Shown here piece by piece: positions 17,370-40,872 of a stretch of 41,984 nucleotides of DNA. The translations under genes and the position numbers were made by a program. Positions within the stretch are counted from its first letter, which is position 1. Each line of letters begins with the position of its first letter. The stretch comes from a virus: IMG/VR virus record IMGVR_UViG_3300027082_000003, positions 1-41,984 of that record, one strand, 5' to 3'. Below the pieces are notes generated by a model, which searched no databases, was not told the origin of the DNA, and saw nothing but the letters and a program-made list of their open reading frames with translations.

Positions 17370-17990
17370 ATGGGCGAACCCGCTAAAAATGTCAAGGAAC
17401 TTAAAGAGGAACGTTGGGGTGAGCAACAAAAGGAAATCCTGGAACAAGAAGATTCGTTTAAGGTCGATGATGAAAAGAAAGCAAATTGGGTATTAAGACA
17501 GATTAGACACCTGGAAAAGAAAAAGGCAGAGAAGGAAGAAATGGCCGAAGAACAGATTGCTGACATTGAAGAGGAAATTGCCGAAATCGAACAATGGTTA
17601 AAAAAAGAGAAGGAACAATTGGATAACAAAATAGAACATTTTAAAAGTTATTTAAAGGAATATGCTTATAATAAGAAGGAAGAAGAAGAGGACTTCAAAA
17701 CTTTAAAACTTCCTTTCGGCAAAATACAATTTAGAAAACAACGTGATTCTTATAACTACAAAGAAGAGGAACTTCTGGATTCGGTCAAGGTCAATAAATT
17801 GTTTAAAGAGGACCCGGACATTATCAAAGTAAAGGAACGCGTCCAAAAGAGGAATTTAAAGGGTTTAATCAAAGAGGGACGTTTAGAAGTTACTGACGAT
17901 GGGCGTGTAGTTGATACTGAAACCGGGAACGTTTTAGATGGAATACAGGTAACATTGGGTCAAGAAGAGTTGAAAATCAAGGTAGATTAA
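17370..17990 (+). CDS. gam: Host-nuclease inhibitor, Mu Gam-like
   Basis: The 206-residue protein starts two bases after the regulator stop, behind AAGGAGG. A long N-terminal coiled coil (about 40-105) is followed by the family's core, LKLPFGKIQFRKQ, then a helical part and the ending VDTETGNVLDGIQVTLGQEE. Mu Gam-type proteins bind linear duplex ends and block RecBCD/AddAB-type exonucleases. It stands just before a Bet-type annealing protein, a usual pairing in phage recombination modules. This phage thus seems to protect free ends during replication or packaging. Confidence 0.85.
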   Translation: MGEPAKNVKELKEERWGEQQKEILEQEDSFKVDDEKKANWVLRQIRHLEKKKAEKEEMAEEQIADIEEEIAEIEQWLKKEKEQLDNKIEHFKSYLKEYAYNKKEEEEDFKTLKLPFGKIQFRKQRDSYNYKEEELLDSVKVNKLFKEDPDIIKVKERVQKRNLKGLIKEGRLEVTDDGRVVDTETGNVLDGIQVTLGQEELKIKVD

Positions 17991-24335: not shown

Positions 24336-24413
24336 TTATCCTCTTCTCGCACCATAGTATATTAAAAATAACATATATGCTACAAATAACACGGCCAGGA
24401 TATTCTTAATCAT
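24336..24413 (-). CDS. 25-residue membrane microprotein
   Basis: ATG at 24413 lies inside the last codons of the upstream gene (start overlaps its GAT GAT TAA end), so translation is probably coupled. The peptide MIKNILAVLFVAYMLFLIYY plus GARRG is one hydrophobic helix with a basic end, giving a predicted N-out or C-in single-pass topology. Ends right before the terminator. Function unknown; small phage membrane peptides often act on host membrane proteins or in lysis timing. Confidence 0.6.
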   Translation of the reverse strand: MIKNILAVLFVAYMLFLIYYGARRG

Positions 24414-24690
24414 CGGACCACAACCTCTGTGATATAATTTCCATCGCATAAGTGGTTATTTCATTGTCGGCCCGGAGTTTAGACAAAGCGTTGGATATTG
24501 ATTCTAAACGCCTTCTTTCACGTTGGCCGGGTAATTGTTCAAACCTGGCCTCTAATTTATTAGACACGGACCTGGTTCCATTCAACACGTTAGACAGGTG
24601 GCCTTCTGTTACTTCTAATAGATTAGACATAGTTTTTTGGTCTAAATCATAGTAGTCCATATATTCTTTAATATCATTCGTTTTTATCAT
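24406..24690 (-). CDS. Small Xre-like HTH regulator
   Basis: 94 residues; ATG 24690 has AGGAGTGATTTAGAAG upstream. Residues about 12-45 are helix-turn-helix: YYDLDQKTMSNLLEVTEGHL, SNVLNGTRSVSNK, which follows the Xre pattern including the NxLNGxR recognition end. A helical tail with RERRRLESISNALSKLRADN follows. It is near the end of the leftward operon, unlike the regulator at 17155, and may be the second half of a switch between the two operons. This is inference. Confidence 0.75.
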   Translation of the reverse strand: MIKTNDIKEYMDYYDLDQKTMSNLLEVTEGHLSNVLNGTRSVSNKLEARFEQLPGQRERRRLESISNALSKLRADNEITTYAMEIISQRLWSDD

Positions 24691-24826
24691 CTTCTAAATC
24701 ACTCCTTAACCGCTTTAAATCCCTGGCCCGTTGTGTATCGCGCCCGTTTATTAAATCATCTTTTGCGTGTTCATATTCTTCATCTACCCGTTTATAAAAT
24801 CCTTCTTCACCTATATACATTGGCAT
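24674..24826 (-). CDS. Unknown charged 50-residue protein
   Basis: ATG 24826 follows AAAGGGAGTGAATAA. The frame runs 50 codons to TGA at 24674-24676 and overlaps the start of the HTH gene. Sequence is very charged and helical (FYKRVDEEYEHAKDDLINGR). Not recognised. Overlap and ribosome site make it a real gene despite its size. Confidence 0.7.
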   Translation of the reverse strand: MPMYIGEEGFYKRVDEEYEHAKDDLINGRDTQRARDLKRLRSDLEDDKNE

Positions 24827-24828
24827 AT

Positions 24829-25044
24829 TTATTCACTCCCTTTGGTTCTGTGGTCTATATCTTTTTGTATTTCCTCTAAACACCTATCACACAAACCCAT
24901 ATGCAGTTGTTGAGTATCAAACCAATTGTGACACCTTTTGCACCGTTGTTCACCGGTGTAATAATCTCTTTCGCCCCTCATCATAAAACCCTCCATTAAT
25001 GGTTCAAATTTATAGTAAAAACGTTTATCTTCTTCGCTATACAT
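24829..25044 (-). CDS. Small zinc-ribbon-like protein
   Basis: Start at ATG 25044, with AGGAAAGGCG upstream overlapping the previous gene's end; the open frame reaches further to 25098 but has no ribosome site there. 71 residues with CKRC and CDRC spaced by 15 residues, a standard zinc-ribbon/knuckle pattern. N-terminal part YSEEDKRFYYKFEPLMEGFM is helical. Partner unknown. Confidence 0.75.
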   Translation of the reverse strand: MYSEEDKRFYYKFEPLMEGFMMRGERDYYTGEQRCKRCHNWFDTQQLHMGLCDRCLEEIQKDIDHRTKGSE

Positions 25045-25049
25045 TTTAA

Positions 25050-25241
25050 TTACGCCTTTCCTAACGGCATACCTATTTTTATATAACACATTGTGCAATA
25101 AAATTGGTTTGTTTCCGGATTGTAGGTCCCTTCTTCATTTTTGATAACCTCTTCAATAGTTTTATAGTCGGTGTTCTTTAGTAATTCCTGGTATTCGTTT
25201 ATTTCTGACGCCTTACGTCCACACTCTTTACACTTTGGCAT
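25050..25241 (-). CDS. Small zinc-ribbon-like protein
   Basis: 63 residues after AAAGGAGTGATATT. CKEC at residues 4-7 and CTMC at about 49-52 give two CxxC knuckles with a helical insert between them (NEYQELLKNTDYKTIEEVIK). This resembles small treble-clef or ribbon proteins of phages. It sits directly before another CxxC protein (24829-25044), so the two may work together. Confidence 0.75.
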   Translation of the reverse strand: MPKCKECGRKASEINEYQELLKNTDYKTIEEVIKNEEGTYNPETNQFYCTMCYIKIGMPLGKA

Positions 25242-25245
25242 AATA

Positions 25246-25518
25246 TCACTCCTTTAAAATTGTGTCCTCTATAACCTTATTTATGGCGCTTTTAAGGGCA
25301 ACATCCATAAAAGTTTTGGCCCTTTTATAATTTTGTAAACGCATTAACTCTTTTTGTATTTCCTCGCCGTGTTCTTGATAAAACTTTTCTGCTAATTGTT
25401 TATGATTTTCACCACCAAAGCCCAGGGCGATAAATAACTGTTCGCCTATCCGGTCCATAACTGTTGCCTTATTTAACATATCAAATTTAACTTCGCGTTC
25501 AACACTTTGTTTTCCCAC
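25246..25518 (-). CDS. Unknown helical protein
   Basis: 90 residues from GTG 25518 with AGGGAGTGATATT upstream. Predicted all-helical and basic/acidic mixed (NKATVMDRIGEQLFIALGFG, HKQLAEKFYQEHGEEIQKEL). Not recognised. The start codon is GTG, while most of its neighbours use ATG. Confidence 0.75.
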   Translation of the reverse strand: MGKQSVEREVKFDMLNKATVMDRIGEQLFIALGFGGENHKQLAEKFYQEHGEEIQKELMRLQNYKRAKTFMDVALKSAINKVIEDTILKE

Positions 25519-25522
25519 AATA

Positions 25523-25681
25523 TCACTCCCTATTAAATAAACTTGGTTGCTCTACAATCTTTAAGTCCACGCCTAACATATTTTCATAAGGGGCCTTTTC
25601 TAAAATCAAGACCCCTTTGTTCATACTTTCCCTAATTACTTTACCTTCTTTTGTTATCAACAAATATTTAGTATCTGACAT
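25523..25681 (-). CDS. Unknown 52-residue protein
   Basis: ATG 25681 after AAGGTGGTGAGT; stop TGA at 25523-25525, which lies within the ribosome site of the next gene. Sequence YLLITKEGKVIRESMNKGVL followed by ILEKAPYENMLGVDLKIVEQ suggests a short beta-hairpin plus helix. Not recognised. Confidence 0.7.
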   Translation of the reverse strand: MSDTKYLLITKEGKVIRESMNKGVLILEKAPYENMLGVDLKIVEQPSLFNRE

Positions 25682-25683
25682 AC

Positions 25684-25761
25684 TCACCACCTTCTTACGT
25701 TAATATAGTCTATGAAGTATGATATTACCACGGCTGACACCAAAATTATAACCATCTTCAT
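25684..25761 (-). CDS. 25-residue membrane microprotein
   Basis: ATG 25761 follows AGGGGTGG; a second in-frame ATG stands two codons on. The peptide MKMVIILVSAVVISYFIDYI plus NVRRW is a single hydrophobic helix with a basic C-terminus, the same size and design as the peptide at 24336. Its stop codon lies inside the ribosome site of the next gene. Function unknown. Confidence 0.6.
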   Translation of the reverse strand: MKMVIILVSAVVISYFIDYINVRRW

Positions 25762-25772
25762 ATGTTCCACCC

Positions 25773-26081
25773 CTAGTTGATAATTTCGTTTATATGTCCC
25801 ACCAATTCATCGGCCACTTCACTTACAATATAAAATACCTCTTGGTGTTGTTCCATAAAAACCTTTGGTATTGCCGGGGCCTTTATATCTTCCCGGTGTA
25901 ATGTTCCATCTATTTCAATGAACCTGTTTAGATATATGCGGTTCCGGTCAGTAAATATAGTTAATGTGATATATTCTAGTGTTTTGCCTTCTTTTGTCCG
26001 GACCGGCCAGGTAAAGTTGTGTTCAATCGGTCCCATTTTTTTCAATTCGTTAAGTATTTCATTCTTTTTGTCCTGGTCCAT
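25773..26081 (-). CDS. Unknown protein
   Basis: 102 residues, ATG 26081 after GGAGGGGGAG, overlapping the upstream gene by 23 bases. Mixed alpha/beta: a beta-rich middle (GKTLEYITLTIFTDRNRIYL) and a helical end (FYIVSEVADELVGHINEI). Not recognised. Part of the tightly packed leftward operon. Confidence 0.75.
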   Translation of the reverse strand: MDQDKKNEILNELKKMGPIEHNFTWPVRTKEGKTLEYITLTIFTDRNRIYLNRFIEIDGTLHREDIKAPAIPKVFMEQHQEVFYIVSEVADELVGHINEIIN

Positions 26082-26487
26082 CTTTAAACTCCCCCTCTAA
26101 TAACATATTTAACGCCTGTAAAAATTTAAAACTAATCATATGTTGCACTTCATCATTTAACTCCTCTAATAACTGCATAGCATTTATCGGACCTGTTATA
26201 CCGGCCATTTGTGTTATTTGATTTATTTTTAAATTGTCGTCCTCGTCTAAATTATAAACGAACCCGGCCCCCATTAAGAAGTCCAATTCTGTTTCTTCGC
26301 CGTCTGGTGTGATAATCTTTATTGGTTGTTTACTGTTTTTTTCTTGATATTTTTTAATAGTTTTGATTAAATTTTTCTCTAAAATATCAGCGTATTTGTT
26401 GGCGTCCTCTTCGTTTATGTCCCCGCTAAAAGCCTCGCTTAATAATCTTTTTGCCTTCTCTTCATCATAATTGAAATCTTCACTCAT
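26059..26487 (-). CDS. Unknown acidic protein
   Basis: 142 residues, ATG 26487 after AAAAGGAGTGATATTAA. The N-terminal 50 residues are an acidic helix (YDEEKAKRLLSEAFSGDINE), the centre has a short beta stretch (PIKIITPDGEETELDFL), the end is helical (FKFLQALNMLLEGEF). Not recognised. It follows a 100-base gap with a GC-rich stem-loop. Confidence 0.75.
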   Translation of the reverse strand: MSEDFNYDEEKAKRLLSEAFSGDINEEDANKYADILEKNLIKTIKKYQEKNSKQPIKIITPDGEETELDFLMGAGFVYNLDEDDNLKINQITQMAGITGPINAMQLLEELNDEVQHMISFKFLQALNMLLEGEFKDGPGQKE

Positions 26488-26532
26488 TTAATATCACTCC
26501 TTTTATTATTTTGAAGTATAATAACTCCACAA

Positions 26533-26563
26533 GGACCAGGGTAGGAGTAGTAAAACCTGGCCC
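26533..26563 (-). promoter_or_regulatory. Intergenic stem-loop A of leftward operon
   Basis: On the minus-strand RNA, GGGCCAGG (26563-26556) pairs with CCUGGUCC (26540-26533), 8 bp including one G-U that would be a mismatch on the other strand. The 15-base loop contains ACUCCU, complementary to the AGGAGU ribosome site downstream. It lies in the gap between the 26587 gene and the 26487 start. No U-run follows. Confidence 0.65.
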
Positions 26564-26586
26564 CCGTGCAATCTTATACTTGCAAT

Positions 26587-26910
26587 CTATGGTGTTATTT
26601 CGTAAAATACATAATCGTCTTTTATTTCATCATATACTTTACACAATACCTTCTTGTCCTGGTTTAAAAATACACTATCAATATACTGCGTTTCTTTCAA
26701 AAATCCGGCTTGTAGGTGGTTTTCGAGCACTATTTCGTAGTGTCTATCCTGGTAGGTGTAATCTTTTTTTGAAAATGTAATTTCATTACTTCTTTGAGTT
26801 GTATATTTATCGACTAATTGTTTTAATATATGCTTTAAACCGTGTATTTCTAATTCTGTTGGTGTCCCGGCGTTTACATATCCTTTGTGTTCGCCTCTAA
26901 CTTCAATCAT
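26587..26910 (-). CDS. Unknown protein
   Basis: 107 residues; ATG 26910 overlaps the end of the upstream gene, with GGAGGCGATAACTA as ribosome site. Beta-rich, with many Tyr and charged residues (FSKKDYTYQDRHYEIVLENH). Not recognised. Its end is followed by stem-loop A. Confidence 0.75.
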   Translation of the reverse strand: MIEVRGEHKGYVNAGTPTELEIHGLKHILKQLVDKYTTQRSNEITFSKKDYTYQDRHYEIVLENHLQAGFLKETQYIDSVFLNQDKKVLCKVYDEIKDDYVFYEITP

Positions 26911-27275
26911 TAGTTATCGCCTCCTATATATTTTTGATATAATTTCCCTATGAATAAAACATTAAACATTTTAAGATAATTGACTAATTCGTTTATTTCC
27001 TCTTTGGCTATCGCTTTGGCCTCTTCCTCTTCCATTGATAACGGCAATCCATATAAACCGCCGGACGTAATATATTCTATCTTAAAGTTATATTTTGGTC
27101 TTTCCATCGGAAGATATACCGTCGCCTCGGCTCTTATATAATAACCTTGGTCTATTTCACTTGGTTTATGCTCAATCTTAATTCCTCTTAATATCGGTTT
27201 ATTTGGTCTAGTGCTTGATATTTCTTTAACAGTTTGAAAAGATACACTTTCTTCTAAATCTTTAAAATCAATCAT
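26910..27275 (-). CDS. Unknown protein
   Basis: 121 residues, ATG 27275 after AAAAGGAGTGAATTTTA. N-terminal part IDFKDLEESVSFQTVKEI, then beta strands (YYIRAEATVYLPMERPKYNF) and an acidic helix (MEEEEAKAIAKEEINELVNY). Not recognised; overlaps the next gene by one base, so the two are coupled. Confidence 0.75.
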   Translation of the reverse strand: MIDFKDLEESVSFQTVKEISSTRPNKPILRGIKIEHKPSEIDQGYYIRAEATVYLPMERPKYNFKIEYITSGGLYGLPLSMEEEEAKAIAKEEINELVNYLKMFNVLFIGKLYQKYIGGDN

Positions 27276-27293
27276 TAAAATTCACTCCTTTTT

Positions 27294-27530
27294 TTATAAT
27301 ATTAATTCTTCCGCTTGTTTTACTTTCTCTTTTGCCGAATTATAAAATCCGGCTTTCAGTAATTGTTTTGCCTCTTTTACTATTTTATAAAATTTTATAT
27401 TTTTAATCTGGTCCTGCTCTATTTCTTCCATTCCTTCAATTTTAAACAACAATAAACCGCTTTTACCATCTTTATTATTTCTAGTGGTTCCCCCGAATTG
27501 TTCTGCGTTCGACATATCGTCAATAAACAT
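27294..27530 (-). CDS. Unknown protein
   Basis: Start at ATG 27530, 8 bases after GGAG; GTG 27539 lies in the ribosome site itself and is unlikely. 78 residues: an N-terminal polar part with FGGTTRNNKDGKSGLLLF and a helical C-terminal half (KIVKEAKQLLKAGFYNSAKE). Not recognised. Preceded by stem-loop B. Confidence 0.7.
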   Translation of the reverse strand: MFIDDMSNAEQFGGTTRNNKDGKSGLLLFKIEGMEEIEQDQIKNIKFYKIVKEAKQLLKAGFYNSAKEKVKQAEELIL

Positions 27531-27553
27531 TTTATGCACTCCTTTTTAAGATT

Positions 27554-27575
27554 GGACCGGGAGTAAACCCGGCCC
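27554..27575 (-). promoter_or_regulatory. Intergenic stem-loop B of leftward operon
   Basis: Minus-strand RNA: GGGCCGGG, loop UUUACU, CCCGGUCC. Eight pairs with a G-U at the same place as stem-loop A, showing the element belongs to the leftward transcript. It lies between the 27584 gene end and the ribosome site at about 27539; no U-run follows. Confidence 0.7.
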
Positions 27576-27583
27576 GTGTTATT

Positions 27584-27940
27584 TTACCTTCTTGCGACAA
27601 ACATTTCCAACCATATTCTTGTTGAAGGTCCGGCCGGTTGTATATACCATTGTTCGTGGCCGTCCGGTCCTGGTGTGCTTTCGTGTAATTCATAACAATT
27701 GATATTACTCTTTTTGTCGCCATAAAATTCTTGATAGAATACGGCCTCGCCTGTTGTATTTGGCAGTATAATTTCGCTTGAACTATTGGTCGATGTTCTG
27801 ATATAAACATTTTTAATTTCTGATAGGTCCTCAATTCCTTCCTGGTCCATTTTCTCATTTAGGTCGTCTAGGTCAAAAGCGTGAACTTCCGGCAGTTTGT
27901 CAATATGCTTTTTAATATTTTCATTAGTGATTTTATCCAT
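27584..27940 (-). CDS. Unknown protein
   Basis: Start at ATG 27940 behind AAAAGGAGTGATTAAA; GTG 27949 would sit in the ribosome site. 118 residues. Helical N-terminus (NENIKKHIDKLPEVHAFDLD) and beta-rich C-terminus with Trp and Pro (GPDGHEQWYIQPAGPSTRIW). Not recognised. It lies between stem-loops B and C. Confidence 0.75.
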   Translation of the reverse strand: MDKITNENIKKHIDKLPEVHAFDLDDLNEKMDQEGIEDLSEIKNVYIRTSTNSSSEIILPNTTGEAVFYQEFYGDKKSNINCYELHESTPGPDGHEQWYIQPAGPSTRIWLEMFVARR

Positions 27941-27960
27941 TTTAATCACTCCTTTTATTT

Positions 27961-27982
27961 GGACCGGCTTTTACACCGGCCC
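27961..27982 (-). promoter_or_regulatory. Intergenic stem-loop C of leftward operon
   Basis: Minus-strand RNA: GGGCCGG, loop about UGUAAAAG, CCGGUCC, again with a G-U at the third pair. It occupies the gap between the 27992 gene end and the next ribosome site. The loop resembles the TGTAAAG loop of the hairpin at 23442-23456 in the opposite operon. Confidence 0.7.
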
Positions 27983-27991
27983 TGGTTTTAG

Positions 27992-28174
27992 TTATTCTGT
28001 AAAATTGTTTTTTAACTCCAGGTTATCTTTATTGATCCATTTTTCTACCACATCGCCTAATTCTACGTTTAACACTCTTAATAACACCTTATCTTCTTTG
28101 ACTTCAAGCACGTCCGCCACAAATTCATTGTAAACGCCTTCCTTAAATATTTGCACCTTATCACCTTTTTGCAT
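27992..28174 (-). CDS. Small SH3-like barrel protein
   Basis: Start at ATG 28174; the frame can extend three codons to a TTG. 60 residues: QKGDKVQIFKEGVYNEFVAD, VLEVKEDKVLLRVLNVELGD, VVEKWINKDNLEL. Alternating strands with a GDKV opening suggest an SH3/KOW-like barrel similar in design to the product of 23501. No clear family. Confidence 0.7.
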   Translation of the reverse strand: MQKGDKVQIFKEGVYNEFVADVLEVKEDKVLLRVLNVELGDVVEKWINKDNLELKNNFTE

Positions 28175-28175
28175 A

Positions 28176-28580
28176 TTAACCAACTACCTTCCCGTGTCTA
28201 TCGGTTTCAAAATATCTTTTTTCGCCGTTTCTATTTGCTATAATTCTGATTGAAGGACCAATTCTTTTTATATTTGTCACGTTTGCTAATATTTCTAATT
28301 CTCTGAACCCGTCCATTCTTTCTAATTGCTCAATATATCCATCGTTTACAAATTCATCTAATGCGCATAACTCCAACCAATCAGCGATTTTAGTGTGAAT
28401 ATTATTAATTGCTAACCATTCTAACACAATATTTCTTAAATGGTCGTATCCTTCAATATCAGAATTGACGGCAAAGTTTGTAAAATTATGAGGTCCGTTG
28501 TAAAGATTTACGGTTCTTGCACCTTCCTGGGCCTTATATTCTATACCATCGTGGACGTAAACAATTTCTTTTTTACTCAT
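28176..28580 (-). CDS. Unknown protein
   Basis: Start at ATG 28580 after AAAAGGAGTGGTTTTA; GTG 28589 is in the ribosome site. 134 residues. N-terminal strands (KEIVYVHDGIEYKAQEGART), then helices (LRNIVLEWLAINNIHTKIAD, WLELCALDEFVNDGYIEQLE). Not recognised. It ends with a basic segment (RIIANRNGEKRYFETDRHGK). Confidence 0.75.
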   Translation of the reverse strand: MSKKEIVYVHDGIEYKAQEGARTVNLYNGPHNFTNFAVNSDIEGYDHLRNIVLEWLAINNIHTKIADWLELCALDEFVNDGYIEQLERMDGFRELEILANVTNIKRIGPSIRIIANRNGEKRYFETDRHGKVVG

Positions 28581-28605
28581 TAAAACCACTCCTTTTAATT
28601 ATTTT

Positions 28606-28653
28606 AGAGGTTTTACCCTCTAGTAGAGAGCCGGGAAGGTTTACGCCCGGCCC
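28606..28653 (-). promoter_or_regulatory. Intergenic stem-loops D and D2 of leftward operon
   Basis: Two neighbouring hairpins in an 82-base gap. D (28653-28628, minus-strand RNA): GGGCCGGG, loop CGUAAACCUU, CCCGGCUC. D2 (28621-28606): AGAGG, loop GUAAAA, CCUCU. They precede the ribosome site of the 28580 gene. D shares the GGGCCGG stem of A-C. Confidence 0.7.
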
Positions 28654-28671
28654 TAACTACAAGATAAAGCC

Positions 28672-28914
28672 TTATTCGTCGGCCTGGTCCTCTTTATCCA
28701 GGAAGTTTTTATATTCTATTTCATACCCGGCCTCTTTGTATGCTTGAATATCTTTGAATATATCACGCTGAATTGCCGGTTTATAATCTTTCTTGTATAT
28801 TGCACGGTAGAAGGTGCTTTGTCCTGTTTGGTGGTTTTCCAGGTAAACAACTGCATTTTTTGACACGCCATAGGTTCCTTTGCGGACCACGATTTTGCGT
28901 TCAGTTTGTGGCAT
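28672..28914 (-). CDS. Unknown basic protein
   Basis: 80 residues. ATG 28914 overlaps the stop of the upstream gene. Strands at the start (RKIVVRKGTYGVSKNAVVYL), then a basic/aromatic middle (STFYRAIYKKDYKPAIQRDI) and a helical acidic end. Not recognised. Followed by stem-loops D and D2. Confidence 0.75.
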   Translation of the reverse strand: MPQTERKIVVRKGTYGVSKNAVVYLENHQTGQSTFYRAIYKKDYKPAIQRDIFKDIQAYKEAGYEIEYKNFLDKEDQADE

Positions 28915-29288
28915 TATTTAACACCTTCTAACTCTTGGTCGAATACTTCTTCCCAATATTCTTTATTCTTGCCGTATAGACCGCCACTTGCGGACCAATC
29001 GCCCACCTTCTCTGGACTACCCCAACAATTTATAGGTAAACGGTTATAGACATACTTTACAATATCAACAAGGGCCTTTTGGTTCTCTTTGTCCGCCCGT
29101 CCGACCGCCTTTTGTAAATCATTCTTTAATACCGCCTGACAGAAGTGACCAGGTAAACGGCCTGTGATTGCGTAATGGTCTAAAGCGTTTTTGGTCCTGG
29201 TTGGTATTTCAATACCGGTTCCCTCTGTTGTGAAAAGGTGTTCCTCGTGGTATTCTCTAATCTTATTCACTTTTGTGCTACTTAACAT
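28914..29288 (-). CDS. Conserved phage protein of unknown function, first gene of leftward operon
   Basis: 124 residues, ATG 29288 after AAAAGGAGTGGG. The central part, YAITGRLPGHFCQAVLKNDL, QKAVGRADKENQKALVDIVK, YVYNRLPINCWGSPEKVGDW, is a motif I recognise from hypothetical proteins in many phages of varied hosts: G-F-AVL-NDL-A-RAD-N-L-I--Y-Y---P--CWGS. Its function is not known to me. As the first gene after the leftward promoter it is probably the most abundant early product of this operon. Confidence 0.8.
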   Translation of the reverse strand: MLSSTKVNKIREYHEEHLFTTEGTGIEIPTRTKNALDHYAITGRLPGHFCQAVLKNDLQKAVGRADKENQKALVDIVKYVYNRLPINCWGSPEKVGDWSASGGLYGKNKEYWEEVFDQELEGVK

Positions 29289-29359: not shown

Positions 29360-29387
29360 ATTATATCAGTTTGATATCGGTTTTCAA
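29360..29387 (-). promoter_or_regulatory. Leftward early promoter
   Basis: On the minus strand: TTGAAA (29387-29382), 16-base spacer, TATAAT (29365-29360). Transcription would start at about 29353, inside operator copy 1. It drives the leftward operon from 29288 to 24336. Confidence 0.8.
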
Positions 29388-29492: not shown

Positions 29493-29521
29493 TTGATGAT
29501 GTGCCGATATTCTGTTATGCT
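29493..29521 (+). promoter_or_regulatory. Possible promoter for small terminase
   Basis: TTGATG (29493-29498), 17-base spacer, TATGCT (29516-29521); a TATAAT overlaps at 29521-29526 but without a good -35. It lies 28 bases before the terS start. Moderate match only. Confidence 0.4.
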
Positions 29522-29548
29522 ATAATTGACAAGAAAGAAGGTGTTATA

Positions 29549-30010
29549 GTGGCACGTAAAAAAGACTTTAATGTTGAAGATTTTGAAAGGTTTTATAGGT
29601 CCTATGAAAACTATCTTATAGACCAAAGCAAAGACCAGGAATACGTTCCCTCTATTGCCGATTTTTGCTATCACGCCGGTATTACCTACCATACGTTTTG
29701 GCAGTATGCACAATATCCTTTGTTCTCTAATGTTATTGACCGTATTAAGTTGCTTATATTGCGGTATGTTATACAAGCATTACTGAATAGGACTAGTGGT
29801 TCTACTAGTGGCCTTAAATTCTACTTAAAGAATGTATATGGTTGGACCGATACTAAAGAGATAACACAAAAAATCACCGATAGCACCGGCAATAAAAAGA
29901 AAATAGACCTTTCAAGACTATCAGACCAGGAACTAGACCAACTTGAACAACTACTGTTGGCCGGTTCTGATGAAGAAACCTACGATATTACACCAAAGGA
30001 CCAGGACTAA
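29549..30010 (+). CDS. terS: Small terminase subunit
   Basis: Start chosen at GTG 29549 because GAAGGTG precedes it by 5 bases; the open frame reaches back to 29501 with no ribosome site. 153 residues. The N-terminal 70 residues hold a DNA-binding HTH (PSIADFCYHAGITYHTFWQY), the middle is helical, and the end has the family marker GSTSGLKFYLKNVYGWTDTK followed by LSRLSDQELDQLEQLL. It recognises phage DNA for packaging with TerL. Notably terS stands 3.9 kb before terL, separated by the probable origin, a structured RNA and small genes, rather than directly adjacent. Confidence 0.8.
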   Translation: MARKKDFNVEDFERFYRSYENYLIDQSKDQEYVPSIADFCYHAGITYHTFWQYAQYPLFSNVIDRIKLLILRYVIQALLNRTSGSTSGLKFYLKNVYGWTDTKEITQKITDSTGNKKKIDLSRLSDQELDQLEQLLLAGSDEETYDITPKDQD

Positions 30011-30250
30011 AACATCATATAACGAACAGAATAGGGCCTTCTATGGACCGATACCCACTTAATGATATAATACCATTGGTTAAGGTATAAATACGTCTTT
30101 AAAGGTGTATTGTGTGCTTTTTATATGGTCCAGGTGGTCTTTGTGGTGGTCCTATTTCAATCAATTAGAGAAGGTAAAATAAAGTCAAAGGGGTAGGGGG
30201 GGTTGTCCGAAATTTGAAAGCCGTTTGAATTATTAAAGGGTAACTAACCT

Positions 30251-30423: not shown

Positions 30424-30600
30424 GGGGTCTATTATAACAAACGCGTCTATTATTACTATTAGTTATATTAGCATACGAATATGTTTTATATTATTTAGTA
30501 TATTATTATTTATTATAAGTATATATTAAGTGATATATTAAATATATATTACTTAATAAATACGTGTAAGTATATATTATAGTTAGTTAGTATATTATGA

Positions 30601-30629
30601 AGGGGTGACAATTTTGTCATAGGGGGTGA
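30601..30629 (+). repeat. Third iteron copy beside AT-rich region
   Basis: TGACAATTTTGTCA at 30606-30619 is the exact reverse complement of the initiator-gene iteron TGACAAAATTGTCA (20612-20625). The flanks also match: GGGG before and GGGGGTGA after, at the same spacing. The GGGGGTG also serves as ribosome site for the small gene starting at 30632. Confidence 0.65.
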
Positions 30630-30631
30630 AA

Positions 30632-30796
30632 GTGATTTACACTAAAGAGCAGGTTAAGCACATAAAACAATATATAGGGTTTGAACCTAAAGATTGTGAA
30701 CATAATGTAGGTGGTAGTTGCATACACCCGGTTATAGACGGTGAACATATAACTTGGTGTAATTTAGAGGATTGCCCATTAGATTTCGATGTTTAA
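30632..30796 (+). CDS. Small cysteine-rich protein, 54 residues
   Basis: GTG 30632 follows AGGGGGTGAAA at a good distance; stop TAA 30794-30796. Sequence YTKEQVKHIKQYIGFEPKDC, then EHNVGGSCIHPV and WCNLEDCPLDF gives four Cys and several His, a likely one-zinc knuckle. Its ribosome site is the tail of the iteron, so binding of the initiator there could affect its expression. Not assigned to a family. Confidence 0.7.
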   Translation: MIYTKEQVKHIKQYIGFEPKDCEHNVGGSCIHPVIDGEHITWCNLEDCPLDFDV

Positions 30797-30827: not shown

Positions 30828-30857
30828 TTGACAAATTATAACATCGCGTTATATAAT
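30828..30857 (+). promoter_or_regulatory. Strong promoter before structured RNA
   Basis: TTGACA (30828-30833), 18-base spacer, TATAAT (30852-30857): both boxes are perfect consensus. Start expected at about 30864. The first open reading frame with a ribosome site is 350 bases downstream. Confidence 0.88.
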
Positions 30858-30863
30858 TATAAC

Positions 30864-31214
30864 AAGTTAGCATAAACCTTTTTAGAAAGTGTTACGCAAC
30901 AGATTCTTTGGGGGTGGTCGTTGAACCTAAAAATTCAAGGCCTACCGGTGAGGCCCACGACTAATACACCGGTTACTGAATTTAATAAAGGTTTAGAGTA
31001 GTCTTGGCGGACCCGCTTTAAACCAAAGTTGTTCGACCAAACCCTGCAAAAAATCGCGACATATTGCAGGTATTCCCAATCTTACATTTCTTAAACGTAA
31101 AACACATATATTACTAACAATACACCAATACTTTAGGCCTCCACTTCTTTTGCACTCCTTTTTCACAGAGATAGTGTTTTTTTGTGGGGGCCTTACTTTA
31201 TTAAGGAGGTTAAG
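30864..31214 (+). ncRNA. Highly structured noncoding RNA or long 5' leader
   Basis: From a consensus promoter to the first start codon there is no gene but many paired elements: AGAA/UUCU hairpin with tandem AG/GA and inner UGUU/AACA (30884-30907); UGGUCG (30915-30920) with CGACUA (30958-30963); UUGAA/UUCAA (30921-30938); GGCCU/AGGCC (30939-30955) whose loop ACCGGUG pairs perfectly with CACCGGU (30967-30973), a 7-bp pseudoknot; UAAACCUUU (30873-30881) with AAAGGUUUA (30987-30995); CCUGCAA/UUGCAGG (31043-31070); AGGCCUCCAC/GUGGGGGCCU (31135-31193). A weak hairpin before T7 (31177-31183) may be a terminator or attenuator. GGUUUA can instead pair with UAAACC at 31019-31024, so two states are possible. 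It matches no RNA class that I know. Confidence 0.6.
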
Positions 31215-31448
31215 ATGGACAAAGATAGTGATATATACATTAGAATGAAAATTTTAGACGCAAAGTTAGCCGAATTAGAAAAAGACAACGATGATATGGA
31301 AGAACCGATTAAGTTTTTAGCAAGACAGATGGTTAAACTTGGTATAGACGACCACGTTGATGATTGGGTAGTTGAAGAATATGTTGACGAAGTCAAAGAA
31401 GAAATTAATAGGGTTCGCTTAATGACATTAATGACGGGGGAGGAATAA
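31215..31448 (+). CDS. Unknown acidic helical protein
   Basis: ATG 31215 with AAGGAGG 5 bases upstream; the frame extends to a TTG at 31182 that lies in the leader hairpin. 77 residues, acidic and helical (RMKILDAKLAELEKDNDDME, DHVDDWVVEEYVDEVKEEIN). Not recognised. First gene under the structured leader, whose CUCCUU (31155-31160) can pair with its ribosome site. Confidence 0.75.
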   Translation: MDKDSDIYIRMKILDAKLAELEKDNDDMEEPIKFLARQMVKLGIDDHVDDWVVEEYVDEVKEEINRVRLMTLMTGEE

Positions 31449-31714
31449 TGGGAGAATACGTAAAGTTATCGCTTGAACACTATGAAAGATTGAAGGACAA
31501 ACAGGAAACGACCGAACATATCGAAGAAACTTACGATTATCTTACTAAAATGATGTCTAACTCACATAAAGTGACAGGTCAAGAAGTAGATGGTTTAAAT
31601 AGAGAATTGGTCGTTTATTTAGATGAACACAGGTTAAGGGATTTGTTTAGGGCAACGGTCGGAATGGACCAGACTTTAGACTTTGAATTAAAGTTCATAA
31701 TTGATAGGGGGTAA
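31448..31714 (+). CDS. Unknown protein
   Basis: 88 residues; ATG 31448 overlaps the previous stop (TAATG) and GGGGGAGG precedes it. Mostly helical (KLSLEHYERLKDKQETTEHI, TYDYLTKMMSNSHK). Not recognised. It belongs to the unit after the structured leader. Confidence 0.75.
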   Translation: MGEYVKLSLEHYERLKDKQETTEHIEETYDYLTKMMSNSHKVTGQEVDGLNRELVVYLDEHRLRDLFRATVGMDQTLDFELKFIIDRG

Positions 31715-31716
31715 TA

Positions 31717-32187
31717 ATGACAGGGTTAATTTTGATAATAGTGGGTTTGGTGATAAGTAATATCGCATTTGGTATCTTATTTCTACACGAAAATAACAAA
31801 AGAGGAAGTTTAGAGAGGCAGTTATCTATCTGGAAAGATGAATATAACCATATAGAATGCAGAGTAAAGAGATATGATAGAAAAATAGATGAACTAAAAG
31901 AGATAATAGAGGATAAAGAAGAAAAAATTATCCATTGGAGTGATTTGGCAGACAAAAGAGCCGAGAAAATCCGGAAGTTAGAAAGAAAAATATATAAATT
32001 AACAAGAGAATCACAAGATTTAGTGGTAACTTTTAACGATAACAACACCAAACAGTTTTTAAATATAGTAGAAGATAGGGTTCAATATAACCACCCGGAC
32101 GATGTAGCGGTCCATATATTCAAAGACGATAACGATAAAGAATATACAGTAAAGGAAGATTATATAAAAGCAATAGAACCTGTATAG
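31717..32187 (+). CDS. Membrane-anchored coiled-coil protein
   Basis: 156 residues, ribosome site GGGGG in the previous gene's end. Residues 3-23 (GLILIIVGLVISNIAFGILF) form one membrane segment; then a long charged coiled coil to about residue 100 (EIIEDKEEKIIHWSDLADKR). The C-terminal 50 residues are a small mixed domain (DDVAVHIFKDDNDKEYTVKE). Function unknown; being outside the lysis cassette, it is less likely a spanin. Confidence 0.75.
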   Translation: MTGLILIIVGLVISNIAFGILFLHENNKRGSLERQLSIWKDEYNHIECRVKRYDRKIDELKEIIEDKEEKIIHWSDLADKRAEKIRKLERKIYKLTRESQDLVVTFNDNNTKQFLNIVEDRVQYNHPDDVAVHIFKDDNDKEYTVKEDYIKAIEPV

Positions 32188-32197
32188 GGGTGTTTTG

Positions 32198-32401
32198 ATG
32201 GCAGTTGAGAAGAAAAAATTTACGGCAATGAAATTATTAGATAAGCACGAAGAAATTTCAGAAAATATCAAAGAGGCCAAACGCGAAATAAAGGAACTAG
32301 AATTTAAGAAAAAGATACATAAGGACTATTTACGCAGACAGGTAGCCAAACAGAAGGCCTTAAAGAAAGAATTGCTTAATAACCACGGGTTTAGTGTATA
32401 A
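32198..32401 (+). CDS. Unknown basic helical protein
   Basis: Start at ATG 32198 after AGGGGTG; TTG 32195 is adjacent. 67 residues, one long Lys/Glu-rich helix (HEEISENIKEAKREIKELEF, KKIHKDYLRRQVAKQKALKK), probably a coiled coil. Not recognised. Confidence 0.7.
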   Translation: MAVEKKKFTAMKLLDKHEEISENIKEAKREIKELEFKKKIHKDYLRRQVAKQKALKKELLNNHGFSV

Positions 32402-32411
32402 GGAGGTAAAA

Positions 32412-32696
32412 ATGGATAGGCTTAACGGCAAATATCACTTTTTTTATAGTAAAGAACAGGAAGAATTGATAAAAGATATGCGACCTAATCATACTAATCA
32501 TAAAAAAACTTATGTTAATTTATATAAAACTGGTAAAAATAATGTTACAGAATTTATTCAATATACAGAAATGGTCCACGAATTTAATATGGGTAAAGCG
32601 AACTATACTCCGCACGATGAACGGTTTGATGATTCTAGAGAAGTGGCCGTAGTAGAGGACCCAGAGATAATGAGAGGCGAATCTTATGACCGATGA
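32412..32696 (+). CDS. Unknown protein
   Basis: ATG 32412 with AAGGAGG upstream; the open frame extends six codons further. 94 residues, polar with a His/Asn/Tyr-rich centre (KDMRPNHTNHKKTYVNLYKT) and an acidic end. Not recognised. Overlaps the next gene by 11 bases. Confidence 0.7.
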   Translation: MDRLNGKYHFFYSKEQEELIKDMRPNHTNHKKTYVNLYKTGKNNVTEFIQYTEMVHEFNMGKANYTPHDERFDDSREVAVVEDPEIMRGESYDR

Positions 32697-32868
32697 TAAA
32701 TTAAAGACCAAAAGAAAATTAAATTATCCAATAGAATGTTCAAGTTGTGGCTTTCGTCCAAATGAGATTAAAGACCACGACGAAAAAACGCCCGGTTTAA
32801 GGGTATTTCCAGGAAGTTGCCCAGAATGTGGCGCTTATACCAGGCCGGTGTTTGAAGAAAGAAATTAA
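32686..32868 (+). CDS. Small zinc-ribbon protein
   Basis: 60 residues with CSSC at about 18-21 and CPEC at about 45-48, a two-knuckle zinc ribbon, with a polar linker between. ATG 32686 overlaps the previous gene; AGAGGCGAA lies upstream. Similar small CxxC proteins occur at 24829 and 25050. A nucleic-acid or protein adaptor role is likely. Confidence 0.75.
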   Translation: MTDDKLKTKRKLNYPIECSSCGFRPNEIKDHDEKTPGLRVFPGSCPECGAYTRPVFEERN

Positions 32869-32896
32869 CGAATGTTTATATAACCTCCTTACTTGT

Positions 32897-32944
32897 GGTG
32901 GAGTTTTTACCCACGTTTACCAGGGGCGTGGGTTCCTCTTCACC
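32897..32944 (+). promoter_or_regulatory. Leader stem-loop before the 32966 gene
   Basis: Within the 97-base gap, ACCCACG (32909-32915) pairs perfectly with CGTGGGT (32927-32933), loop TTTACCAGGGG; outside it, GGTGGAG (32897-32903) can pair with CTC (32936-32938) and CACC (32941-32944) across a TT bulge. There is no T-run. Placed right before the ribosome site GAAAGGAAGTG, it looks like a translational control or stability element. Confidence 0.55.
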
Positions 32945-32965
32945 GTTACTGAAAGGAAGTGAAAA

Positions 32966-33853: not shown

Positions 33854-33878
33854 TATATAGCAGAAAAGGTTGGTTACT

Positions 33879-35486
33879 ATGACAGAACAACATTCTAGTA
33901 GAGTATATAGAATAAAAGAAAAATTAGAAGTTGACCCTATAAATAGAGTAAGGTTCGAGAAACTTAAACGCGACCCCTATATGTATATTAACGAAGTTGT
34001 AAGTATAGAGGATAAAGACGTTGTAGGTTCTGTTATCGACTTTGATTTATGGGAGGCCCAGGAAAAGGCCCTTTCTAAAATGATAAATAATAGGTTATCA
34101 GTAGTATTAAAAGCGCGTCAGCTAGGTTTATCCTGGTTGGCGCTTTCTTATGGAACACATATTGTTGCTTTCAATCCCGGCAAATCAGTATCCGTTATTT
34201 CACAGACGGAAGAGGACGCTAAAGAACTGATACGCCGGGTTGATTTTATTTTAAGACATTTGCCTAATTGGTTAATCGTTTCTAAAGATACAGAAGAGGA
34301 AGATTGGGAAGAAAATACAACAGGTATATGGTTCGAGAAAAGGGCTTTATCTATCCAGATACACTTTCCAGATGAAGAGGATTCGTTCTTTAAAGGCTAT
34401 ACTTCCTCACCAGGTTCAGCACGTTCATTTACTGACAATCTAGTAATTATGGACGAATGGGCGTTTCACCCGATGGCCGAAGATATTTGGACTTCCGCTT
34501 ATCCGACAATAAATAGGCCCACAGGTGGTAAAGTTATCGGTATTTCAACAGGTGAAAGAGGCACGTTCTTTGAAGAAATATGGAATGACGCAGAATGGGA
34601 GTTTGAACTGACAGGTGAATCCGGACGCGGAAGAAATGGTTTCGTTGGTATCTTCCTGCCCTGGGATTCAGACCCTAGGCGTGACAGAGAATGGTATGAA
34701 AGAACCAGAAGAGCATTACCACGCACCTACCGCAAAGAATATCCTTCCTCACCAGAAGAGGCCTTCTCAATCGGTAAAGGCGCTATGTTTCCAGAGTGGA
34801 ACAAAGAAATACACGTTATTCACGACAAGGCTTGGTATCCGCCAGATTCTTGGCGTATTGTTGGCGCTTATGATGGTGCTTATAAACAACCGGCTTTTGT
34901 CTGGGTTGCTATCTCTAACGATGGTTGGGCGGTCGCTTACCGCGAGTATTATGATTCCTTCGTAACCGACCCCGAACAAGCAGAGGCTATCCGTGCGCTT
35001 TCACGTGATAAAGACGGAAGGCCAGAACAGATTGACTATATCGTTGCTGATACGTCCTGTTGGGCTAAAAGCCAGGATAGTGGAAAATCAACGGTCAAAA
35101 TATTCCGCAACCACGGGATAGGGCCGATTAAAAAGGCTGATAAAGACAGAATTATGGGTTGGAGGCGCTTACACGAGTGGCTTAAACCTTTAAAAGATGA
35201 AGATGGTAACTATATTCCGGATAGGTTCGGCGACCCACTTGCTAAACTACGTGTTACTCCGAATTGCCCGAATATTATCAGAACTATACCGGGTTTACAG
35301 TATAATGAACACAAACCAGAAGATTTAGACAACGGACAAGAGGACCACCTTGTTGACGCTTTGCGCTATTTGGTTATGACTTTCAGTAATAACGATAGGA
35401 TACACGTTCCTAAAATGGAAAAAAGAAGGCGTGAAAAGAAACGCAAGAAAATGATAGAACCCATTTCAAAAGAAGTGGGGTATTAA
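33879..35486 (+). CDS. terL: Large terminase subunit
   Basis: 535 residues from ATG 33879 (AGGTTGG upstream; a TTG three codons earlier is possible). ATPase motifs: Walker A-like KARQLGLSW (K78 to W86), Walker B LVIMDEWAF with D192-E193, and coupling motif GISTGERG. The nuclease domain shows D332 in GAYDGAY, D391 in VADTSCW and D489/D493 in EDHLVDALRY, the RNase H-like acidic set. It pumps DNA into the prohead and cuts it. The C-terminus is very basic (KRRREKKRKKMI). Confidence 0.93.
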   Translation: MTEQHSSRVYRIKEKLEVDPINRVRFEKLKRDPYMYINEVVSIEDKDVVGSVIDFDLWEAQEKALSKMINNRLSVVLKARQLGLSWLALSYGTHIVAFNPGKSVSVISQTEEDAKELIRRVDFILRHLPNWLIVSKDTEEEDWEENTTGIWFEKRALSIQIHFPDEEDSFFKGYTSSPGSARSFTDNLVIMDEWAFHPMAEDIWTSAYPTINRPTGGKVIGISTGERGTFFEEIWNDAEWEFELTGESGRGRNGFVGIFLPWDSDPRRDREWYERTRRALPRTYRKEYPSSPEEAFSIGKGAMFPEWNKEIHVIHDKAWYPPDSWRIVGAYDGAYKQPAFVWVAISNDGWAVAYREYYDSFVTDPEQAEAIRALSRDKDGRPEQIDYIVADTSCWAKSQDSGKSTVKIFRNHGIGPIKKADKDRIMGWRRLHEWLKPLKDEDGNYIPDRFGDPLAKLRVTPNCPNIIRTIPGLQYNEHKPEDLDNGQEDHLVDALRYLVMTFSNNDRIHVPKMEKRRREKKRKKMIEPISKEVGY

Positions 35487-36066: not shown

Positions 36067-37989
36067 ATGTTAATAACAAACGAGCAAAAACAAAAAACGC
36101 AGGAAACTTTACAATTATTTAACTATTATGAAAATTACAGGCGTGATTACAGAGAAACCGCACTTGATAATTATAAAGATTTAGTAGGATACAAAAAGCA
36201 GTTGGACGAGGACGACCCGCGTTCTAACCTGCATATTCCCCGCGTTTATCAGATAGTGGACACGATTAGAAGTCGTCTTGTTATGGCTTTTTTCAAACGC
36301 GAACCTTATTTCGAGTTTTTGCCTTCACCTACACGTCAGAATATGTATTCTAAACAATCGGCGGAAGAGAAGGCCAAAGTTGCGTCCAATATCGTGGACC
36401 AACAATTAAACCGGAATAATATCGTGTCAAAATTTTATGATTTTGTTACTTCTTTTCTGACCTTCCCACTAGGAATTATGAGTGTGGGTTGGCGTTATGA
36501 GGAAAAGATGATAAGGCGCAGGGTGCCGGAACCAGAGATACAAAATACCAGGTTTGGTTATTATAAGACAGGCAATTATGTTTATGTTCCTTATGAGCAA
36601 AAAGAGGTTGCTTTTGATGATAACCATATCGGTAACGTAAATTTCTTTGACTTCTGGCCGGACCCACGGGCGACAGATATATCTAACGCCAGGGGAGTAT
36701 TTCATAGAGAATTTTTAACTTGGGAAGAAGTTGTTGATAGAATAGAGTTTTATCGCAAATTAAATGAAGGGACTATTTATCAGACCCAGAGAGATGATTT
36801 AGGCAACGCACAAAGTTTGGAATCCGGACGTTCTATTTTAAAGAACGCCGTTGAACAATCAGATGGTGACGAATATGATGTATATAGTAATTTAGACGAC
36901 AGAAAAGAAAACAAGAATGAATTATACGAGTTTATGCACTATTGGGAGCCGGACAAACATAAAATAATCATAAATAGACAACAGATAGTATATGAAGGTC
37001 CGTCACCTTATTGGAGGCACGGCGAATTACCGTTTGTTACTGCCTCTTTTGAAAGATTACCCAATCAGATGATGGGACAAGGTGCAATAGATTTCTTACA
37101 CGATTTACAACAGGAAGAAAACGCTATTCACAATCAACGTTCAGATAATGTTAATATGATTTTGAACAAAATGTGGAAAGTTAAGAGAACCGCAGATATT
37201 GATGAATCACAGTTGATTTCACAACCACACGGTATAATTCACGTTGACGAACCCGATGATATAGAACCTATCGAATTTAACGATGTCGTGGCCTCTAGTT
37301 TTCAACAACAGAATATCATATCACAAATTATGGAAAATACACTAGGAACACCACCTATTATGCGTGGTGCAGAAGGTAGAGGCAGTTCGACCGCAACAGA
37401 GGTTATGAAACAAACAACTAACGCCGGTATGCGTTTCGATGTTAAGATTAGACTTTATAATGAATTAGGATTGCAGAGATTGGCTTATTTAATGGATATG
37501 AATAATCAGCAGTTTATTAGTGATGAACGTATTATCAAGATGAAACAAGAAGGTGTCGAACAATGGAGGGCAGTTGAGCCTAGAGAAATTATTGGTGAAT
37601 TTGATTATAGACCTGCTACACCATCTATCGACCCAGGCGCTAATAAACAGGTCAGACGTGAGCAAATGACAATGTTAATGCAGACTTTACTCAATATGCA
37701 GATTCCTTATGTTGATTACTATAAACTTATTAAAGAGTGGATTGAAGAGTTTGATATTCCAAACCCGGAATCCTTCTTATTACCGAAGGACCAGGCTAGG
37801 GAAATAATGAAACAGATGATGTTACAACAACAAAAAGAAGAGCAAGGAAAAGATAGTAAAGGTAAAGCAAATAACAATCAACCCACAATGGCCCAACAAC
37901 AGGTCAATGCTAATTATGGTAAAAAGAGGTCTGGTTCACCACAACAACACGGACCAACACAAGAACGCAAAAGTGGGCAGGTGAGATAA
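36067..37989 (+). CDS. Portal protein
   Basis: 640 residues after AGCGGGTG. The N-terminal third has the podovirus portal layout: YYENYRRDYRETALDNYKDL, RSNLHIPRVYQIVDTIRSRL, VASNIVDQQLN, NVNFFDFWPDPRA. The middle holds MMGQGAIDFLHDLQQEENAI and the long GRGSSTATEVMKQTTNAGMR helix, where the crown/stem helices of the ring lie. It forms the DNA entry vertex and binds terminase and adaptor. Length and position (terL - portal - scaffold - capsid) fit. The C-terminal 60 residues are Gln-rich. Confidence 0.85.
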   Translation: MLITNEQKQKTQETLQLFNYYENYRRDYRETALDNYKDLVGYKKQLDEDDPRSNLHIPRVYQIVDTIRSRLVMAFFKREPYFEFLPSPTRQNMYSKQSAEEKAKVASNIVDQQLNRNNIVSKFYDFVTSFLTFPLGIMSVGWRYEEKMIRRRVPEPEIQNTRFGYYKTGNYVYVPYEQKEVAFDDNHIGNVNFFDFWPDPRATDISNARGVFHREFLTWEEVVDRIEFYRKLNEGTIYQTQRDDLGNAQSLESGRSILKNAVEQSDGDEYDVYSNLDDRKENKNELYEFMHYWEPDKHKIIINRQQIVYEGPSPYWRHGELPFVTASFERLPNQMMGQGAIDFLHDLQQEENAIHNQRSDNVNMILNKMWKVKRTADIDESQLISQPHGIIHVDEPDDIEPIEFNDVVASSFQQQNIISQIMENTLGTPPIMRGAEGRGSSTATEVMKQTTNAGMRFDVKIRLYNELGLQRLAYLMDMNNQQFISDERIIKMKQEGVEQWRAVEPREIIGEFDYRPATPSIDPGANKQVRREQMTMLMQTLLNMQIPYVDYYKLIKEWIEEFDIPNPESFLLPKDQAREIMKQMMLQQQKEEQGKDSKGKANNNQPTMAQQQVNANYGKKRSGSPQQHGPTQERKSGQVR

Positions 37990-39678: not shown

Positions 39679-40872
39679 ATGGCTACTGATTTTGCAGGTA
39701 GAAACTTGTGGACCGGTTCTGCTGGTTCGCCAGTAATGAGTTACAACATTGACTCTGACCGTAGGGATATTGATGTGGCGAGTGATATACCACAACTAGT
39801 GCCTTCCGCCACACCATTTTTAACAGTTTTAATGAGGGCAAGAAAGACACCCGTAAATTCTCTTGAATTTATGTGGTATGATGAGGACGAACCTGTTTGG
39901 TACACCCAAGCAAATGGTGATTATAACGATTCTGTTACTACTGTCACCGTTGACGACGCGTCCTTCATTAAACCGAAACATATTATCAAAAATACCGCGA
40001 CAGGTGAGATTATGAGAGTTACAGGTGTGTCTGGTAATGACTTAACCGTTGATAGAGGATACGGTTATGACGCCGATACTACAACAGGAACACAAGCAAC
40101 TGCGGGTTCCTCGGACGATTATATTATGTTACTACACACCGCTATGGAAGAAAACTCTGATGTTCCAGAAACTTACGCAACACAACCTAATAAGGAGTTC
40201 AATTATGTCCAAACCTTTAGAACCCCATTTGATGGTTCTATGGATAACGAACTAGAGGCTAAAAAAGCCGGTGATTCTACTAGGGTTCGTTTAAGAAGGT
40301 TGAAGGCTATTGAACACCGTATTGGTATTGAAAGACAGGTTACTTTCGGTGAAAGAAAAGAGGACGTTTCTAATAAAATCCGTATGACAGGTGGGGTTTT
40401 ACAGTATATTAAGACTAATAACTATAATGTAGGCTCTACTAACAACGGTATCTTAACCGAGGCTGAATGGGAGGCCTTCACAGAAATGGCCTTCAAATAT
40501 GGTAATAAGGACGTAAAACTCTTTGTTACTTCCAGGAAGGTAGGTTCTATCTTAAACCAATTCGCCTCTGACCGTATCGTAACAACTTCTGGCGAAGATA
40601 CTTACGGTATGAAGTTAAAGAGGATTGAAACCTTCCACGGCGACATTATCATAGCGACAACCAGATTGTTTGAACACGACTATGAAGGTATGGGTGTCGT
40701 GCTTGATGTCGAGAATATTGATTACCGTCCATATGGCGGATATGACACTAAACTCCGCGCTAATATTCAACCCGATTCTTTAGACGGTTGGATGGACGAA
40801 TATATGACAAAGGCTGGGTTAAGAGTAAGACTAGAAAAGACACACGCTATTTTATCTGGCGTGACTAAATAA
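39679..40872 (+). CDS. Major capsid protein (DUF5309/SU10-like)
   Basis: 397 residues, CAGGGAGTGAAC upstream. HK97-fold features: N-terminal arm, long helix with AGDSTRVRLRRLKAIEHRIG, GERKE segment, and a beta-rich peripheral domain. The layout with DVASDIPQLVPSATPFLTVL, LRRLKAIEHRIGIERQVTFG, VLQYIKTNNYN and a final DGWMDEYMTKAGLRV resembles the DUF5309/SU10 capsid family of podoviruses and siphoviruses. An internal Ig-like insert is possible at about 85-125 (VTTVTVDDASFIKPKHIIKN). Flanked by scaffold and decoration genes. Confidence 0.82.
   Translation: MATDFAGRNLWTGSAGSPVMSYNIDSDRRDIDVASDIPQLVPSATPFLTVLMRARKTPVNSLEFMWYDEDEPVWYTQANGDYNDSVTTVTVDDASFIKPKHIIKNTATGEIMRVTGVSGNDLTVDRGYGYDADTTTGTQATAGSSDDYIMLLHTAMEENSDVPETYATQPNKEFNYVQTFRTPFDGSMDNELEAKKAGDSTRVRLRRLKAIEHRIGIERQVTFGERKEDVSNKIRMTGGVLQYIKTNNYNVGSTNNGILTEAEWEAFTEMAFKYGNKDVKLFVTSRKVGSILNQFASDRIVTTSGEDTYGMKLKRIETFHGDIIIATTRLFEHDYEGMGVVLDVENIDYRPYGGYDTKLRANIQPDSLDGWMDEYMTKAGLRVRLEKTHAILSGVTK

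Follow-up and report, generated by a model that had tools for sequence, protein, structure and literature searches.

A candidate leader RNA with a predicted attenuator hairpin between terS and terL of an uncultivated tailed phage

What does a strong promoter serve when it is followed by some 350 bases that show no coding signal? This question is raised by a locus in the IMG/VR virus record IMGVR_UViG_3300027082_000003, of which we analysed the whole stretch from position 1 to 41,984 (hereafter the window; complete record, 41,984 bases, 36% GC). Judged on its sequence, the contig is a tailed phage, and it carries genes for a lysozyme (15583-15996), a Mu Gam-like protein (17370-17990), a RecT-like protein (18006-19307), the terminase subunits terS (29501-30010) and terL (33870-35486), a portal-like protein (36067-37989) and a major head protein (39679-40872). 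For uncultivated phages, regulatory and free RNAs have been poorly sampled, and the RNA that this locus would encode is a well-delimited candidate with regard to its start, end and structure.

We consider the best explanation, at a probability of roughly 40%, to be an accessory transcription unit made up of a promoter, a leader RNA and an attenuator, residing in the variable stretch that separates terS from terL, which would give a short RNA and, through read-through past its 3' end, feed a run of small genes. As far as can be read from the DNA, the RNA has a clearly defined start and a probable end and is credible as an orphan candidate, rather than demonstrated as a new RNA class. What this single orphan sequence offers at present is a target for mapping transcripts and for homology searches to come.

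Promoter, reading frames and neighbouring genes

The plus strand carries a sigma-70 promoter at 30828-30857, in which TTGACA (30828-30833) and TATAAT (30852-30857) are separated by an 18-bp spacer. The 12/12 match, which the first-pass annotation had described as perfect, was confirmed and is the sole one in the 42-kb contig, where 0.03 would be expected (mean of 100 shuffled contigs). Based on the position of the -10 element, the RNA would be expected to start near 30864. A promoter scan of the interval from 30828-30857 through to terL found no second strong promoter on the plus strand.

Coding potential was assessed as codon log-odds trained on the clear genes of the same contig. No coding signal was found in any of the six frames from about 30800 to the Shine-Dalgarno sequence of the open reading frame (ORF) at 31215, as the values stay below zero in every frame and turn positive only in that of this ORF; the earlier claim of about 350 gene-free bases after the promoter is thereby upheld. 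An antisense ORF at 30993-31166 was considered as a gene and rejected, being without coding signal by the same measure.

The first gene past the RNA encodes an acidic, helical product of 77 amino acids (31215-31448, plus strand), for which no relative was found in the viral contigs searched. It is followed by further small ORFs (31448-32868, plus strand; starts at 31448, 31717, 32201, 32394 and 32686), which are co-directional and lead toward terL at 33870. The genes at 31448-32401 have no counterpart in the related phages fetched, searches of Pfam, PHROGs and PADLOC with the downstream proteins gave no toxin family, and single-sequence AlphaFold models of these proteins were poor.

Besides the RNA feature and the small-gene run, the interval from terS to terL comprises an AT-rich non-coding stretch and a gene of 56 amino acids (30626-30796), which contains cysteine and adjoins the promoter on its upstream side. 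In the AT-rich part, positions 30500-30600 contain long inverted repeats of the TATATATTAAGT type, with a folding z of -3.5. Right behind terS, an extended -10 promoter-like site (TGATATAAT, 10/12) is located at 30044-30071, and on the minus strand a promoter-like TTGAAA-16-TATAAT with TG ahead of the -10 (29360-29387) heads the leftward block at 24406-29288.

Folding of the candidate RNA

Minimum-energy folds were compared, stretch by stretch, with those of 500 dinucleotide shuffles. On the plus strand, the 5' segment (30864-30907, 44 bases) has a structure at chance level (z -0.2) and is followed by a first structured module (30908-31046) with a z of -3.3, for which 3 of the 500 shuffles (0.6%) were as good. 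The subsequent linker (31047-31134; 88 bases, 30% GC, 6 G) is unstructured (z -0.1), and the second structured module (31135-31193) reaches a z of -4.6 to -5.2, equalled by none of the 500 shuffles. Also for the slightly wider stretch 31130-31200, the z is -5.2 with 0/500 shuffles, and the window 31100-31199 was second in significance among 986 windows covering the region in this contig and nine related loci. Taken whole, positions 30864-31193 give a z of -3.15, and scores near -3 are modest. Among all 351-base windows of the contig, the region ranks 5/835 after dinucleotide correction and is thus unusual, not unique; other windows, mostly in coding parts, have equal or better minimum free energy (MFE) z-scores.

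These results bear on several statements of the first-pass annotation, which had listed at least seven paired elements in a large structured RNA and regarded its long perfect helices as improbable by chance. Pairing beyond chance is retained for the two modules, while the 5' segment and the linker fold as their shuffles do. The argument from perfect helices is not confirmed: the longest perfect inverted repeat of the region measures 9 bp and is ordinary in shuffles. A promoter-driven structured non-coding candidate stands, and "large" or "highly structured" would be an overstatement, since an unstructured linker splits the two modules.

The predicted fold of the first module has, on the plus strand, a closing helix (30916-30920/31034-31038), a helix at 30931-30937/30977-30983 and a hairpin at 30990-30999/31015-31024. 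It also includes an H-type pseudoknot with exact Watson-Crick stems (30939-30973), in which stem 1 is GGCCU/AGGCC (30939-30943/30951-30955) and stem 2 joins the 7-nt loop ACCGGUG (30944-30950) exactly with CACCGGU (30967-30973). With a stacking energy of -27.5 kcal/mol, it surpasses every other perfect Watson-Crick H-type pseudoknot of the contig, whichever strand is considered (runner-up, -20.5), and none of 600 shuffles of the region equalled it. The nested fold retains the 7-bp helix at a pair probability of 0.99 and drops the GGCCU stem, the imposition of which costs 7 kcal/mol with stem 2 not yet credited. By our own estimate stem 2 would contribute about -15 kcal/mol, from which the penalty usually charged for a pseudoknot (7-15 kcal/mol) has to be set off; the knotted form and the plain hairpin differ little in estimated energy, and the knot is possible, not certain. 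Given this small difference, and since ACCGGUG pairs with CACCGGU whether or not the GGCCU stem is present, more confidence attaches to the 7-bp pairing than to the knot. The perfect 7-bp pseudoknot reported earlier is thus borne out in its exact pairing, whose stacking energy shuffling did not reproduce, and as a possible topology.

In the second module, AGGCCUCCAC (31135-31144) pairs with GUGGGGGCCU (31184-31193) in a 10-bp helix with one U-G. Inside this helix lies a weak hairpin (31152-31177), which continues into U7 (31177-31183). The energy of the complete hairpin is -23.8 kcal/mol and that of the inner one -4.3 kcal/mol. The strong helix is followed by UACUUUAUU and, after a gap of 9 bases from the hairpin end, by the AAGGAGG Shine-Dalgarno sequence (31203-31209) and the ATG at 31215 of the first downstream gene (together 31203-31217, plus strand). 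The module is not a canonical terminator, as its U7 lies inside the hairpin, after the weak inner stem, and the tail of the strong stem is UACUUUAUU; owing to this tail, it was not listed by a scan for consensus terminators. From its predicted fold, it is probably an inefficient terminator or attenuator. The order expected of an attenuator leader, namely promoter, structured leader, terminator-like hairpin and gene, is present, with an atypical U-tract. We further speculate that the G-poor, C-containing single-stranded linker (31047-31134) would suit Rho loading.

Homologue searches and related phages

Covariance models of Rfam 15 gave no match at the gathering threshold. Relaxing the cut-off to E<=5 brought up no more than two families, CRISPR-DR21 (17.5 bits against a gathering score of 48) and RMST_1 (13.2 bits against 40), both clearly chance matches, and the earlier statement that the RNA fits no known class is thus in line with this search. 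ARAGORN detected no tRNA or tmRNA. A group I intron was considered and rejected: GACUA/UAGUC flanking the knot recalls P7, but P4-P6 do not fit and there is no Rfam match. The RNA had no blastn match in GenBank phages or plasmids, and its exact hairpin, sought in IMG/VR, was absent there. A degenerate pattern of the pseudoknot matched IMG/VR twice, in GC-rich DNA and overlapping ORFs, and both matches were judged to be chance. Fifteen-mers of the first module gave 32 matches in IMG/VR, with flanks lacking similarity.

Relatives by terL were drawn from IMG/VR and from a few metagenome-assembled genomes (MAGs). Neither blastn nor nhmmer found a homologue of the RNA over 57 loci of these relatives, and their whole records yielded a single 20-base match, attributable to chance. 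A single-sequence covariance model, run on the window plus 56 loci (57 sources in total), found only the window itself. Across 398 genomes from the phylum of a Clostridia MAG, the same model gave one match (E 0.008 per genome), which we regard as chance since it lies antisense inside a coding sequence resembling isocitrate dehydrogenase.

One relative (L002) is nearly identical to the window but starts at about 32364, i.e. downstream of the RNA, and the closer of the remaining relatives have a terL that is about 55-60% identical. Where their contigs extend far enough, the gene order is terS, a G-rich motif, variable small genes and terL. The RNA and the 31215-32401 genes are absent from L005, L007, L008, L009, L010, L012 and others, and the matching position in the relatives has no promoter of 11/12 or better, which together indicate that the unit occupies an exchangeable part of the genome. 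Small cysteine-rich ORFs occur at the matching place of the 56-amino-acid gene in relatives too, a likeness in position. The G-rich motif (GGGGGGGAGGGGTGTC-like) is found in the window at 30180-30215, just 3' of terS, and also near ~530 in L005, ~3930 in L007, ~4310 in L008 and ~4290 in L012 (five related phages in all); in relatives, an AT-rich TATAATATATATACC-like stretch comes after it. This motif is possibly a cohesive-end or packaging site.

A proposed leader with attenuator and the competing explanations

According to the reading that we favour, the strong sigma-70 promoter would initiate an RNA at about 30864, in which a compact, pseudoknotted 5' domain (30908-31046), a single-stranded linker and a stable hairpin (31135-31193) precede the Shine-Dalgarno sequence of the 31215 gene. 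The hairpin would most likely halt a large share of transcription and release an RNA of ~320-340 nt, and the remaining transcription would pass it and provide messages for the small genes that begin at 31215, which we infer to depend on this read-through. The 5' domain might then function in cis, as a sensor or antitermination element modulating read-through, or as part of a released RNA acting in trans.

Comparable arrangements exist in well-studied systems. The strong lambda late promoter pR', placed in front of the late genes, drives an untranslated 6S leader of ~200 nt, which ends at the terminator tR' that is bypassed by antitermination. The locus described here resembles it in its strong promoter, untranslated leader and terminator-like hairpin before genes, but no Q-like protein or qut-like site was identified in this phage, there is no sequence relation, and the promoter has the 56-amino-acid gene immediately upstream, with terS farther upstream. 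The pseudoknotted epsC/EAR element and the put RNA of HK022 are promoter-proximal structured RNAs that alter read-through of downstream terminators in cis. Likewise, the RNA here is promoter-proximal and structured with a candidate pseudoknot, although it has no Rfam match to epsC. In the RCd22-abiF locus of C. difficile phage phi027, most transcripts end at a terminator that precedes the gene, and a fraction extends past it (PMC12373285). That system shares with the present one a promoter (sigma-A there), a structured non-coding RNA, a terminator, a promoterless downstream gene and co-transcription by read-through, which in our case are predicted from sequence.

This part order is also what would argue for a module of an RNA antitoxin and a protein toxin (type III or AbiF-like), built of promoter, structured RNA, terminator and toxin gene as in the RCd22-abiF prophage locus of C. 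difficile (PMC12373285). RCd22 is ~100-130 nt long and has two abiF motifs (RF03085) as well as the abiF gene (PMC12373285), whereas the phage RNA here has neither repeat units nor an abiF or ToxI-type match in Rfam, and the downstream proteins, which include no abiF-type toxin, are without toxin match in the three databases searched; such a module is highly improbable. A translational switch in cis, in which the 5' end (30875-30891) would mask the Shine-Dalgarno region (31194-31211) by base-pairing, is very unlikely. The 17-bp helix in question is part of the MFE fold of 30864-31214 with a probability of 0.8-0.95, which drops to 0.25-0.3 once 26 bases are added. The apparent support came from a cut inside the 3' hairpin and vanished with the cut at the hairpin end, where the energy gain is within chance (reached by 7% of 5'-end shuffles and 23% of leader shuffles); the cost of opening the Shine-Dalgarno sequence is likewise unremarkable (15% of shuffles, rising to 76% when part of the ORF is added). 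An alternative helix (30873-30881/30987-30995) was rejected at about 13 kcal/mol above the best fold, and with both pairings set aside nothing beyond the layout speaks for the riboswitch-like character proposed in the first-pass annotation. Even less plausible is an element acting at the DNA level through protein-binding ACCGGT palindromes: two copies of this motif, ~24 bp from each other, do sit in nearly palindromic surroundings, but the symmetry suits an RNA hairpin, with its odd 7-nt loop and second strand, rather than two matching DNA palindromes, and the site is ~80 bp past the expected start site.

Two other accounts carry more weight, each of them unlikely. One, credible all the same, is a phage RNA gene that has a promoter and a terminator to itself and whose product acts in trans on RNA or protein of the host or the phage, e.g. 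as a decoy, the downstream genes being read from elsewhere or by leakage. It would be consistent with the unique perfect promoter, the compact 5' domain and terminator-like 3' hairpin, the G-poor unstructured linker that could base-pair, and the moron-like insertion missing from relatives; however, the terminator is non-canonical and the genes from 31215 are served by no other good promoter. We rate as rather unlikely an ordinary long 5' untranslated region with a strong promoter and one hairpin close to the ribosome-binding site, the pseudoknot-like pairing being accidental or functionless. The chance-level folding of the 5' 44 nt and the 88-nt linker, a z of only about -3 over the whole region with equally strong MFE z-scores elsewhere, and the lack of a homologue showing constraint fit this account, but not a pseudoknot that is the strongest of the contig and unmatched in 600 shuffles, nor the 0/500 shuffles at 31130-31200; a 350-nt untranslated leader would also be long by phage standards. 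The first-pass annotation had allowed both a cis leader and a trans-acting RNA; of the two, a leader with an attenuator is favoured because a strong hairpin lies just 5' of the Shine-Dalgarno sequence and the downstream genes have no other good promoter.

With regard to phage RNAs already described, the cabRNA of staphylococcal phages is a structured RNA of ~400 nt that is sensed by bacterial cGAS and triggers CBASS, and the cabRNAs of different phages have no mutual homology (PMC10686824). The parallel with the RNA here is confined to two respects, terS-terL location and size. The cabRNA of Phi80alpha-vir is inside the terS/terL coding sequences (PMC10686824), and the present RNA is intergenic with its own promoter. 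GOLLD and ROOL, grouped with OLE as ornate RNAs, are structured RNAs that phages or prophages carry and whose function is not known (PMC12286853); compared with these three, the RNA here is shorter, is unstructured over a large part, is not near tRNA genes and has no Rfam match. It is doubtful, yet conceivable, that we are looking at an undescribed class of phage structured RNA, in which an unstructured linker joins a pseudoknotted 5' domain to a 3' attenuator hairpin and which forms a movable unit between terS and terL, serving as a sensor that controls read-through into the small accessory genes or as a free anti-host RNA. If the RNA does control read-through or act on the host, an RNA moron would be added to phage biology. 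Farther along the interval, positions 32869-32960 form a second short non-coding leader, with an ACCCACG/CGTGGGT hairpin and a CCTCC stretch, 5' of the gene at 32966.
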